Below, piece after piece: positions 2 to 48,140 of a stretch of 64,000 nt of DNA (position 1 is the first letter of the stretch; each line of letters starts with the position of its first letter). The stretch lies in NCBI GenBank assembly GCA_943788895.1, contig CALSRZ010000002.1, forward strand, positions 124,001-188,000, read 5' to 3'. The translations under genes and the position numbers were made by a program. This stretch comes from an uncultured Pseudomonadales bacterium (lineage in GTDB: Bacteria > Pseudomonadota > Gammaproteobacteria > Pseudomonadales > Porticoccaceae). The notes below the pieces were generated by a model that ran no database searches, was not told the origin of the DNA, and was given only the letters and a program-made list of their open reading frames with translations.

Positions 2-550
2 GAAAGAGCTCACCTGGCCAGCCCGGATATCAATTTAACCACCCATATTAATGATGTTGCCAATCTGATTTTATTTGAAGAGCTGGAGCAGGTTGTACTG
101 GTTGGCCATAGTTATGGTGGCATGGTGATCACCGGGGTGATGGATCGGATGCCGGAAAATATAAAACAGGTATTTTTTCTCGATGCTTTTGTTCCTGCTG
201 GTGGAATGGCGGCGGTTGACCTCTGGGGTGATTTAGCTGGGCATAAGGTTGTCGACGGGTTGGTGCATTTTTCGTGGTTGGATTCGGGCGGGCCGGTGCC
301 TGGGGATGTGCCTCAGTCTTATAAGACGCTTACTGAGCCAGTGTCGTTTGAAAATCCGTTGGCGCTGGAATTGCCGGTGACTTATGTGCCTTTTGTTGGA
401 GGGGTTGTTGAGGGGAAGGTGCGGGCTGGTTTTGATCCTTCTTGGAAGCGTGCTGTTGCTAGGGGTTGGGCTGTTACGACGCTTGAGAGTGATCATAATG
501 CGCAGCGTTCGCATCCTACTGAGTTGGCAGAGTTGTTGATGGGGTTTTGA
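2..550 (+). CDS. alpha/beta hydrolase, 3' part (5' end outside window)
   Basis: The reading frame is open from base 2, so the gene starts upstream of the window; an ATG at 122 is internal. About 182 residues are visible. The nucleophile elbow GHSYGG lies just before base 122, with Ser as the presumed nucleophile. Near the C-terminus the stretch SDHNAQRSHP carries the candidate catalytic His in the position typical of the esterase/hydroxynitrile-lyase group of small alpha/beta hydrolases. This supports a soluble cytoplasmic hydrolase of esterase type; the substrate cannot be told. The second half of the gene is rich in G and T on the coding strand, with many GGG, GTT and TTG codons, unlike most neighbours. 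It ends just before the tRNA-linked repeat array and nothing links it functionally to that array. Confidence 0.75.
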   Translation, partial: ERAHLASPDINLTTHINDVANLILFEELEQVVLVGHSYGGMVITGVMDRMPENIKQVFFLDAFVPAGGMAAVDLWGDLAGHKVVDGLVHFSWLDSGGPVPGDVPQSYKTLTEPVSFENPLALELPVTYVPFVGGVVEGKVRAGFDPSWKRAVARGWAVTTLESDHNAQRSHPTELAELLMGF

Positions 551-780
551 GTAGGGGTGCGTGATTGAGGCGAAGCCCAAATTCCGCTGGAGCGGAATTA
601 GTCGAACAAAGGTTCTCACCGGCTGTCGTTTTTTTATATATGGTGCACTCGGAAGGATTAACTCAAAACACCTTGAAGGTGTTTTAACCCCTGCGGGGCA
701 TCGCCGCGTTGCGGCTTGGTTCAAATTTTGCTGGAGCAAAATTAGTCGAAGAAGGTTCTTACCTCCGTCGTAGCCATATA

Positions 781-811
781 AAAAAACCCCACCGCATGCG
801 GTGAGGTTTTT
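781..811 (-). terminator. Rho-independent terminator inside repeat unit 641-816
   Basis: The stem CCTCACCGC/GCGGTGGGG (one mismatch) is flanked by A and T runs, so on the minus strand it reads hairpin then T run. It is the duplicated copy of the hairpin at 957-987. Flanking A and T runs mean it could work in both directions. Confidence 0.7.
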
Positions 812-956
812 GTATATGGTGCACTCGGAAGGATTAACTCAAAACACCTTGAAGGTGTTTTAACCCCTGCGGGGCATCGCCGCGTTGCGGCTCGGTTCAA
901 ATTTTGCTGGAGCAAAATTAGTCGAAGAAGGTTCTTACCTCCGTCGTAGCCATATA

Positions 957-987
957 AAAAAACCCCACCGCATGCGGTGAGGTTTTT
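957..987 (-). terminator. terminator directly after tRNA-Arg
   Basis: The hairpin lies five bases after the encoded CCA of the tRNA, in minus-strand order, and is followed by a T run. This is the natural end of the tRNA transcript. If it is leaky, RNA would continue into the next repeat unit and meet the identical hairpin at 781-811. Confidence 0.75.
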
Positions 988-992
988 GTATA

Positions 993-1069
993 TGGTGCAC
1001 TCGGAAGGATTCGAACCTTCGACCGCCCGGTTCGTAGCCGGGTACTCTATCCAGCTGAGCTACGAGTGC
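993..1069 (-). tRNA. tRNA-Arg(ACG)
   Basis: The minus strand gives a 77-nt cloverleaf with acceptor GCACTCG/CGAGTGC, D-arm AGCTCAGCTGGATAGAGT, anticodon stem CCCGG/CCGGG with loop CTACGAA (anticodon ACG), T-loop GTTCGAATCC, and encoded CCA. ACG is the Arg anticodon that TadA edits to ICG in bacteria, reading CGU, CGC and CGA. The last 19 nt are repeated in the downstream array. Confidence 0.97.
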
Positions 1070-1096
1070 TTTTAGGTCTCATTTCTGAGGTCGCGT

Positions 1097-1125
1097 ACTA
1101 TAGGTGAGCAGGGCTGTTGAGTCAA
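1097..1125 (-). promoter_or_regulatory. sigma-70 promoter of tRNA-Arg
   Basis: On the minus strand TTGACT (1125-1120) and TATAGT (1102-1097) are separated by exactly 17 bases, with a GC-rich discriminator ACGCGACC downstream, as expected for a stringently controlled stable-RNA promoter. A perfect 18-bp palindrome (1123-1140) overlaps the upstream edge of the -35 box. Confidence 0.8.
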
Positions 1126-1176
1126 CAACTGCAGTTGTTGAAAACATTGTTTTTTGGAACTTTTTTAAGGGTTTTA

Positions 1177-1662
1177 TTAACTGTAGGCAATCGGTACCTT
1201 CATGGTTTCCTTTAACTCTTCCATTACCACGTAACTGGTGGATTCCTGAACGGCGGGAAGCTTGAGAATACTGCTGCCCAATAACTCTCTGTAGGCGCTC
1301 ATATCGGCAACCCTGGCTTTTAACAGGTAGTCATAGTTGCCTGATACAAGAAAGCAGCTCTGGACGTTTTGCAGGCTCATCACCGAGTCGCGAAACTCTT
1401 CAAAGTTTTCCTGGGAGGTGTGATTGAGCCGTATCTGCACAAAAACCACTAGCCCGGCCTCCAATAGCTGGGGATTGAGCGTTGCAGTGTAACCCTCGAT
1501 ATAGCCATTTTTTTCCAGCCGTTTTACCCGCTCTATACAGGGTGTTACCGAGAGTCCTACTTCACGAGCGAGGTCGGTATAGCTGATGCGCCCATCCTTT
1601 TGCAGTATGCGCAGGATATTGCGGTCTATTTTGCTGATCTTGACTGCCTGGCTTTCTTTCAT
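1177..1662 (-). CDS. lrp: leucine-responsive regulatory protein Lrp
   Basis: A 161-residue Lrp/AsnC-family transcription factor, close in length to E. coli Lrp (164). The N-terminal winged helix-turn-helix covers about residues 13-60, including LAREVGLSVTPCIERVKRL. The C-terminal RAM effector domain (about 65-150) contains VSGNYDYLLK and the conserved ending YVVMEELKE. Overall similarity to global Lrp is much higher than to the smaller AsnC regulators. The gene is divergent from alanine dehydrogenase across 154 bp of AT-rich DNA, a classic position for a regulator of ald. It probably binds DNA as a dimer/octamer and responds to leucine or alanine; the effector here is inferred. No terminator is obvious before the tRNA-Arg promoter. 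Confidence 0.92.
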   Translation of the reverse strand: MKESQAVKISKIDRNILRILQKDGRISYTDLAREVGLSVTPCIERVKRLEKNGYIEGYTATLNPQLLEAGLVVFVQIRLNHTSQENFEEFRDSVMSLQNVQSCFLVSGNYDYLLKARVADMSAYRELLGSSILKLPAVQESTSYVVMEELKETMKVPIAYS

Positions 1663-19516: not shown

Positions 19517-19628
<112 letters not shown>

Positions 19629-47772: not shown

Positions 47773-48140
47773 ACTCAACCTCATCCTTTATTTGGGCGCT
47801 ATTGTACTCATCTATAGGTCAATGAGGGAGTGCCTTTGGCGGTTATTCACAAACTATCTGCAACTGTAATTGCGAATCTCGGTTTTGTTTATCCAGTCGG
47901 CCCTTAACAGCAGCGACTTTATAGGGCTTTTTACGCAGCTTTTTCTTTAATTGGACTCGTCGTTATGGTATAAAGCGCGCCGGTTACTGAGATGTCTCGG
48001 CAACCGGTAATTGAACTTAACTTTTTTTAAACGACACACACGTTCCGACACAGCGATCTGGGTGCCCGATAAGCGCGATTTATGGCTTCGAAGGTTGATC
48101 ACTGGGGTACGTGGAGGCCTAACCCCTAAAAGGAAAAATT
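47773..48140 (+). promoter_or_regulatory. map/rpsB divergent region with rpsB promoter and leader
   Basis: 368 bp. TATAAA at 47969-47974, followed by GCGCGCC, is a good stringent-type -10 for rpsB, with a weak -35 (TTTAAT-like) at 17 bases. The leader then holds a hairpin at 47980-48007 (CCGGTT/AACCGG around CTGAG/CTCGG) and a second at 48104-48126 (GGGGT/ACCCC) just before the ribosome binding site AAAAGGA. Leader-mediated control by S2 is known in E. coli rpsB; conservation here is inferred. Confidence 0.6.

Follow-up and report, generated by a model that had tools for sequence, protein, structure and literature searches.

tRNA-linked repeats (TLRs) carry, as their hallmark, an 18 to 19 bp copy of the 3′ end of the RNA gene upstream, and E. 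coli holds 22 of these repeats in ten loci (PMC8144298). According to that paper, TLRs were first described in 1978, no function had been assigned to them before the work on rrA, rrB, and rrF, and an early claim that linked rtT to recovery from amino acid starvation was retracted (PMC8144298). The repeats rrA, rrB, and rrF are transcribed and processed, and their RNAs (RrA, RrB, and RrF) bind Hfq and CsrA; rrB sits between two terminators, T1 (87% efficient) and T2, and the 3′ end of its RNA was mapped 3 nt past the repeated 18 bp (PMC8144298). The same source treats 3′ETS-leuZ, the trailer of leuZ, as a functional tRNA-derived fragment (PMC8144298). Further descriptions include a tandem GA motif in RtT (PMC7657543) and an antisense RNA at the tRNA-Tyr beside tpr (PMC11623569), with side mentions in PMC2658671 and PMC4606813 and a related editorial (PMC9245011).

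Here we compare with these systems an array found behind a tRNA-Arg(ACG) gene in the window, by which we mean the whole stretch of DNA analyzed (64,000 nt, from a draft genome of 6 contigs). The array belongs to this known kind of repeat, and the novel part of our account is a model in which a hairpin cassette would have split a copy of the host T-loop. In the open-license literature we found nothing describing this anatomy, and nothing that, judged by title and abstract, fitted T-loop insertions in tRNA genes.

Results

A tandem array follows tRNA-Arg(ACG) in the window

Read on the minus strand, the locus consists of a promoter-like site, tRNA-Arg(ACG), a terminator, unit 1, a second terminator, unit 2, and a degenerate unit (Table 1). 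One promoter-like site was found in 400–1400, and 0.8 are expected in shuffled sequence. Two full copies of 176 nt (631–806 and 807–982, at a spacing of 176) differ at 2 of 176 positions, 636 and 717, and are thus ∼99% alike. The last 19 nt of the tRNA (993–1011) recur exactly in both copies, and a 17-nt part of this tail occurs 3 times in the window, the tRNA itself included, when up to 2 mismatches are allowed (0.02 expected from shuffles). Sequence comparison bears out the 176-bp tandem copies with an exact 19-nt tRNA-derived segment that the earlier note had described behind tRNA-Arg, and the terminator that it placed in each unit is present as a palindrome. Its order of parts needs turning around: the tRNA tail is indeed in every full unit, but on the minus strand a unit runs terminator, body, tail, so that the tail ends the unit. 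The third, degenerate copy is real, and its match extends ∼30 nt past position 571, from which the note had counted the feature.

Table 1. Features of the tRNA-Arg(ACG) array, in window coordinates
Feature	Positions	Strand	Basis
Promoter-like site of tRNA gene (TTGACT, 17 nt, TATAGT)	1097–1125	−	consensus match alone
tRNA-Arg(ACG), array host	993–1069	−	tRNA call and Rfam tRNA, 67.5 bits
Terminator palindrome T1, begins at the CCA of the tRNA	950–995	−	
Repeat unit 1 (TLR 1), body and tRNA tail copy	817–956	−	R2, 146.8 bits; in R2 seed
Unit 1 hairpin cassette, 87 nt, between TTCGA and ATCC	835–921	−	
Tail 1, exact copy of last 19 nt of tRNA	817–835	−	
Terminator palindrome T2	774–819	−	
Repeat unit 2 (TLR 2), body and tRNA tail copy	641–780	−	R2, 145.5 bits; in R2 seed
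Unit 2 hairpin cassette, 87 nt, between TTCGA and ATCC	659–745	−	
Tail 2, exact copy of last 19 nt of tRNA	641–659	−	
Degenerate third unit, without exact tRNA tail	540–640	−	76% over 45 nt; R2, E = 1e-9

We searched with two covariance models of our own. R1 was built from a sequence alignment in which RNAalifold found only 6 pairs. R2 was seeded with ten window-type units from Arg-ACG (seven), Lys, Leu-CAG, and Val tRNAs, both window copies among them, and its structure was set by hand from these units. In the whole 64 kb, R2 gave 3 matches, namely the two full copies and the degenerate one, and none other at E ≤ 10. Elsewhere in the window lie an ordinary small SRP RNA (19526–19622) and a t44 RNA (48017–48123).

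The array is a member of the rtT/rrB-type TLRs

Like known TLRs, which lie directly 3′ of a tRNA or rRNA gene in one to five copies per locus, the window units stand directly 3′ of their tRNA, in two copies and one degenerate copy, and the 18 to 19 bp identity of the tail is 19/19 in units 1 and 2, although not in the degenerate third copy. For relatedness of the bodies, a criterion that is ours and not that of PMC8144298, we ran R2 on ten stretches of E. coli K-12 (30 kb). We obtained exactly seven matches at E ≤ 10, the four copies of rtT, lysQ, lysV, and rrB (E 1.7e-6 to 6e-4), none of which had been used in the R2 seed; all four rtT copies were placed within 1 nt of where the Rfam RtT model places them, which upholds the likeness to E. 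coli tyrT that the earlier note had proposed. The units of argV/argZ/argQ and those between the lys and val tRNAs were not matched by R2 at E ≤ 10. R1, otherwise useful in searching, had no E. coli match at E ≤ 10.

In E. coli, the Rfam model of RtT (RF00391) matched the lysV unit and, within the lys/val cluster, five stretches, but neither rrB nor the Arg units. It gave no match at E ≤ 10 in window positions 500–1180 and none at E ≤ 0.1 in the whole genome, and the window units thus fall outside Rfam RtT at its cut-off of 45 bits. The covariance search that the earlier note had called for connects the window to rtT in one direction, from the units to rtT through R2, but not from the Rfam model to the window. 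Among loci carrying RtT matches, R2 found 44 of 51 at E ≤ 0.05, with a best E of 1.8e-14. An Rfam scan of the region at a relaxed threshold returned 24 matches besides the tRNA, all below cut-offs; the best of them, Plastid-ycf2 (E 3.7e-4), lies antisense to the tRNA, and the others, PyrR (0.19) and weaker, look like chance.

Side by side, the E. coli repeats share different features with the window. The rtT repeats of tyrTV likewise lie 3′ of a tRNA, in tandem, with an 18–19 nt copy of its 3′ end, and their bodies have a left arm with GATGAGAA and TTCGAC, a GAGCG stretch, a GCCCGAAGGG hairpin (ACCCGAAGGG in some copies), and GAGTAATCC before the tail; unlike the window, tyrTV shows by eye no intrinsic terminator separating the tRNA from the unit, the AT-rich first hairpin is missing from its cassette, and the RF00391 model does not reach the window. 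At lysQ the layout is that of the window (tRNA, intrinsic terminator, unit, tRNA tail, and the same terminator again), and the T-stem and split T-loop are visible (GCAGGTTTGA ... ATCCTGC). Both lysQ and lysV are matched by R2, lysV being compared through that match alone; they differ in their Lys host, and lysQ has one unit. In argV/argZ/argQ, by contrast, the host is also Arg(ACG) and the tail is repeated after all three genes, but the body differs, being missed by R2 (E ≤ 10) and by RF00391 (at cut-off), there is by eye no terminator before the unit, and the left TTCGA junction is not clear. 3′ETS-leuZ is comparable as an RNA from a tRNA trailer, and we know of no tail copy or cassette in it. 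Finally, rrA, rrB, and rrF have the repeat of an RNA gene's 3′ end between two terminators, as in the window, and rrB is matched by R2 at E = 7.9e-6; they differ in having a 5S rRNA host and in that their transcription and binding of Hfq and CsrA have been demonstrated (PMC8144298).

We conclude that the window array is a member of the rtT/rrB-type TLRs, a known kind, and not an isolated oddity. The suggestion that it might be an independently evolved or unrecognized relative of rtT finds no support, because the E. coli family had already been described and argV/argZ/argQ are themselves followed by tail copies.

Related units follow many tRNAs in the genome and its relatives

In its own genome, R1 gave 19 matches at E ≤ 0.001. 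For 17 of them a same-strand tRNA ends no more than 700 nt upstream, where 0.1 such cases would be expected. Their hosts are 8 of the 31 tRNA genes: Arg-ACG, Arg-TCG, Lys-TTT, Leu-TAA, Leu-CAA, Ser-TGA, Ser-GCT, and Ser-GGA. One remaining match is inside a copy of tRNA-Cys that immediately precedes the intact gene, and the last (E 2.9e-5), with no tRNA nearby, is probably chance. R1 matches occurred in 29 of the 56 genomes searched, own genome included. Within the genus, the tRNA-Arg(ACG) loci of relatives carry arrays or single units that vary in copy number and sequence. Absence from relatives, which the earlier note had named as a finding that would count against the repeats, is thus not what we found, since same-kind arrays stand at the same tRNA.

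With R2 we counted 136 matches in 85 loci, loci that were picked because they had matches; for 121 of them there is a same-strand tRNA no more than 1500 nt upstream, and these tRNAs cover 16 anticodon types. Among the other 15, 5 precede an intact tRNA-Cys (one site being counted in two overlapping loci) and 10, judged by eye, are at contig ends or come after partial tRNAs. RF00391 reached E ≤ 0.1 in 13 of the 56 genomes and its cut-off in 8, six of them in this genus; eight loci from this search have Tyr (three) or Ser (five) hosts. It was found in 64 of 370 genomes of a draw from the class (E ≤ 0.001; 25 above cut-off) and in 39 of 397 genomes of a draw from the phylum (23 above cut-off), two draws that share some genomes and that both used stricter filters, which lose weak matches. 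Read from coordinates, 28 of 30 class-draw loci have an upstream tRNA for Gln (11), Ser (9), or Tyr (8), the exceptions being one locus without a tRNA and one with tRNAs on the other side; 12 loci from the phylum draw have tRNA-Tyr (10), Lys (one), and a Pro/Leu/His/Arg cluster (one).

Three relatives (loci L074, L077, and L079) have units between the tRNA-Tyr and tRNA-Gly of a Thr-Tyr-Gly-Thr operon, which is followed by an apparent EF-Tu gene. Since these units lie inside the operon and inspection by eye shows no obvious intrinsic terminator, transcription of some units can be presumed.

A pattern-free scan of all tRNAs for echoes of their tails found echoes matching 14 or more of 17 nt at 4 of 31 tRNAs in the own genome and 4 of 37 in the relative G017; the scan misses many units because their acceptor parts are worn, and it also flags tails of tRNA-Met that come without a cassette. 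At these tRNA-Met(CAT) genes (L174 in the own genome, L192 in G017), a copy of the 3′ end, identical over the 17 nt tested or more, stands ∼86 nt downstream. Two further observations concern tRNA-Arg loci. In G022 (L036, C1:2148787), a 48-nt 3′ piece of tRNA-Arg is followed by a terminator and a unit, probably marking an island inserted in the tRNA. In G018 (L031 and L202, C4:164788 and 201573), the Arg(ACG) cassette looks by eye split in its first hairpin, and the ∼37 kb between the halves would suit the insertion of a large element at this point.

A hairpin cassette is proposed to divide a copy of the host T-loop

A full unit opens with the terminator, followed by a left arm and TTCGA; next comes the cassette, made up of four hairpins, and then ATCC with the 3′ strand of the host T-stem, the 3′ strand of the acceptor stem, and CCA. 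When the window unit is read without its cassette it gives TTCGAATCC, which is the host T-loop. This suggests that the unit is the T-arm and acceptor end of the host, split at the T-loop (TTCGA^ATCC) by the cassette; the proposed entry point, after TTCGA, is position 58 in the usual numbering. Among 118 distinct aligned units, TTCGA stands in the five columns before the cassette in 86, TTCGA, TTTGA, or GTTCA stands close by in 112, and 6 have no left motif; on the right, 103 have a T-loop end of TCC or CCC type and 15 have no right motif. A pattern search that prescribed both junctions gave single cassettes of 68 to 89 nt.

We compared the right flank of each cassette with its own host, taking host tails from the own genome and G017 (E. 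coli Tyr apart). The match was 6.64 of 8 letters, against 4.78 for shuffled hosts, and 0 of 10000 shuffles were as high; in this test the T-stem letters were free and the first letters partly prescribed by the pattern, and because the tails came from two genomes, matches are understated where hosts differ elsewhere, as for Val in G018. The left arm is an inverted copy of the host T-arm for some hosts only. In the window the likeness is one seen by eye: matched in inverted orientation, the host tail scores 10 of 17 at best, which does not rise above background, since tails of other tRNAs reach up to 11; elsewhere, Arg-TCG is above background (13 versus 11) and Ser-TGA is not (13 versus 14).

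The same split appears in longer tRNA copies. At L198 in G018 (C4:594500–595700), three tandem near-complete copies of tRNA-Val(GAC) stand ahead of an intact tRNA-Val, each with a cassette at GGTTCGA^...^ATCCAC. Copies of tRNA-Cys (L173 and L152, in the own genome and G022) have a cassette at GTTCGA^, and a tRNA-Pro remnant (L154) also shows the T-loop split. ARAGORN calls the three split copies at L198 as tRNA genes, which is an annotation hazard. Inside cassettes behind two Leu tRNAs (L142 in the own genome, L206 in G033, L150 in G022) there is a second hairpin element of ∼50 nt (GCAGATTTTTGCTCCTGCAAAATCTGC...).

To compare cassettes between loci we reduced the 68 hits of the pattern search to 25 genome-by-host representatives, dropping those that exceeded 95 nt, lacked a host, were plainly false, or repeated an array already represented; a partner at the same host was missing for 4 of the 25, leaving 21. 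For 17 of these 21 the nearest cassette was at the same tRNA in another genome, and for 0 of 21 was it at another tRNA of the same genome, which argues for little recent hopping.

Stems covary but their mismatches are balanced

The RNA of a unit is predicted to fold better than shuffles (z −2.6 and −2.8). In an alignment of ten units, two-sided changes affect 17 of 30 pairs (5.9 in shuffles), and among the 118 distinct units all 28 model pairs do so, in 652 cells versus 175; these controls lean toward the hand-set structure, because it came from the same units and the alignment (A4) was fitted to the model. The closing stem is the weakest helix, with 71% of cells paired versus 89–95% for the others.

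We then counted mismatches in the interior of stems. In 83 non-redundant units (1939 Watson–Crick pairs) we found G.U 15 times and A.C 14 times. In the acceptor and T stems of 43 tRNAs the ratio was 19:0, and with the same detector it was 21:3 in hairpins from the 75-nt stretches that follow tRNAs (Fisher 0.008). The 61 window-type units alone gave 12:12 (Fisher 0.011), 26 cassettes alone gave 2:4, and the model alignment over all pairs gave 136 G.U versus 72 A.C, where a single end pair of helix 4 accounts for 66 of the 136 and the closing stem for others. Because a fold kept as RNA should favor G.U, equal numbers of G.U and A.C hint that the stems are maintained as DNA palindromes. We take this as a hint against selection on the RNA fold, and not as proof, because the counts are small, the rows are related, and the model-based count is less even.

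Discussion

Our reading of the window is that of a TLR array of the rtT/rrB kind with a T-loop cassette origin, a low level of read-through RNA, and mostly vertical inheritance, and we put its probability at about three in four. The array would have arisen from a copy of a T-arm or tRNA whose T-loop took up the cassette, and would grow and shrink by unequal recombination between direct repeats, either the tail and terminator (∼62 bp) or whole units, a process that we propose also keeps copies within an array alike. Most transcripts started at the tRNA promoter would stop at T1, with a minority reading through to stop at T2. The tail copy would then act as a cutting signal, near which the read-through RNA would be cut by RNase E or by tRNA 3′-trimming enzymes, and the product would be a low-level RNA of ∼150–180 nt tied to the output of tRNA-Arg. 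Each array would be inherited mostly vertically at its tRNA. By analogy with rrB, the units are probably expressed through a low level of read-through, the RNA being processed at the tail copy, and a small RNA from each unit is plausible on that precedent, although a terminator stands before each window unit. Such an RNA is most likely a weak trailer-type regulator or nothing at all.

Tentatively, and at somewhat below even odds, we would extend the cassette model to TLRs including rtT, which may be mini-elements targeted to the T-loop: a gene-free cassette placed after TTCGA in copies of many tRNAs across Gammaproteobacteria, kept as DNA palindromes with arms that follow the host. They would then not be a set of regulatory RNAs. 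An origin in the T-loop does not hold for every TLR, because the host of rrB is 5S rRNA, which lacks a T-loop.

The alternative that survives best is possible but, in our judgment, doubtful: the units would be passive DNA repeats with no RNA function, whose hairpins are kept as palindromes by template switching, their arms by gene conversion, and their copies by unequal crossing-over. Template switching at quasi-palindromes can maintain DNA palindromes, and the balanced stem mismatches (15:14), so different from those of tRNAs and of hairpins downstream of tRNAs, speak for this alternative, as do the 99% likeness of the window copies and the 73–91% likeness of Arg(ACG) cassettes across species to their nearest relative. 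Yet different species keep units at the same tRNA (17 of 21 nearest neighbors), and units occur within the presumably transcribed tRNA-Tyr/tRNA-Gly operon, and the mismatch counts are small and come from non-independent units, with 2:4 in the cassettes alone and an uneven ratio in the model alignment.

That the units instead encode a functional decoy or regulatory small RNA, which mimics the top half of a tRNA and titrates a tRNA-binding factor, CsrA, or Hfq, we consider unlikely. The tail is identical to the tRNA 3′ end, the predicted folds of some units (Tyr and Val) have a closing stem like that of a minihelix, folding exceeds that of shuffles, the stems covary, and RrA, RrB, and RrF provide a precedent by binding Hfq and CsrA (PMC8144298). 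However, that closing stem is the weakest helix, the predicted loops of the window units contain by eye no GGA, the E. coli TLR scores for CsrA binding given in PMC8144298 are <0.01, and G.U and A.C are near 1:1 in the stems. As for the narrower proposal in the earlier note, a decoy for CCA enzymes, RNases, or charging, nothing that we tested supports it.

An actively mobile cassette, that is, a small non-autonomous element inserting 3′ of TTCGA in T-loops, is a still poorer account, and we think it improbable. It would explain the common junction before the cassette in 112 of 118 aligned units, the head-to-tail cassettes at one junction (three after Asp at L159, several after Ser-TGA at L143), the cassette in opposite orientation, seen by eye, in a tandem array after tRNA-Phe (L190 in G017), and the related cassettes behind many tRNAs, but no cassette of the 21 had its nearest neighbor at another tRNA of the same genome, and the distribution of Y1 transposases (PF01797) does not track that of cassettes. 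At E ≤ 1e-5, PF01797 is missing from the cassette-rich genomes G000 (the own genome), G002, G010, G011, G022, and G033, and it is present in G003 and G016, which have no R1 matches, as well as in the cassette-rich G017 and G018 and in G020. We accordingly rejected a Y1 (IS200/IS605-type) transposase as the mobilizer, since its distribution does not support that role.

It is very improbable that the repeats are integration scars (att repeats) left by islands or prophages at the tRNA: tRNA genes do look like integration sites, the 48-nt tRNA-Arg piece in G022 lying 7.2 kb downstream of the intact gene, and comparable partial tails precede units at other loci, but terminator and cassette are part of the direct repeats, which keep a fixed period, cassettes behind different tRNAs are related to one another, and the 176 bp between copies is too short for an integrase gene, none of which lies between the direct repeats. 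An assembly or sequencing artifact, for which the 99% identity of the two copies and the 6-contig draft might be cited, is scarcely credible, because the copies differ at 2 positions, the one-contig genome G017 has a same-kind array at the same tRNA, and relatives, with G017 and G022 both single contigs, hold arrays that differ in sequence and number.

For the array reading that we favor, the consequences lie in three directions. The balance of G.U and A.C urges care here, as covariation alone need not prove an RNA. Gene finders can call T-loop-split tRNA copies as tRNAs, as at L198. Finally, the genus carries TLRs behind many tRNAs, and because some of these are near-complete tRNA copies that show the position of the cassette, the origin of TLRs may be readable from sequence.
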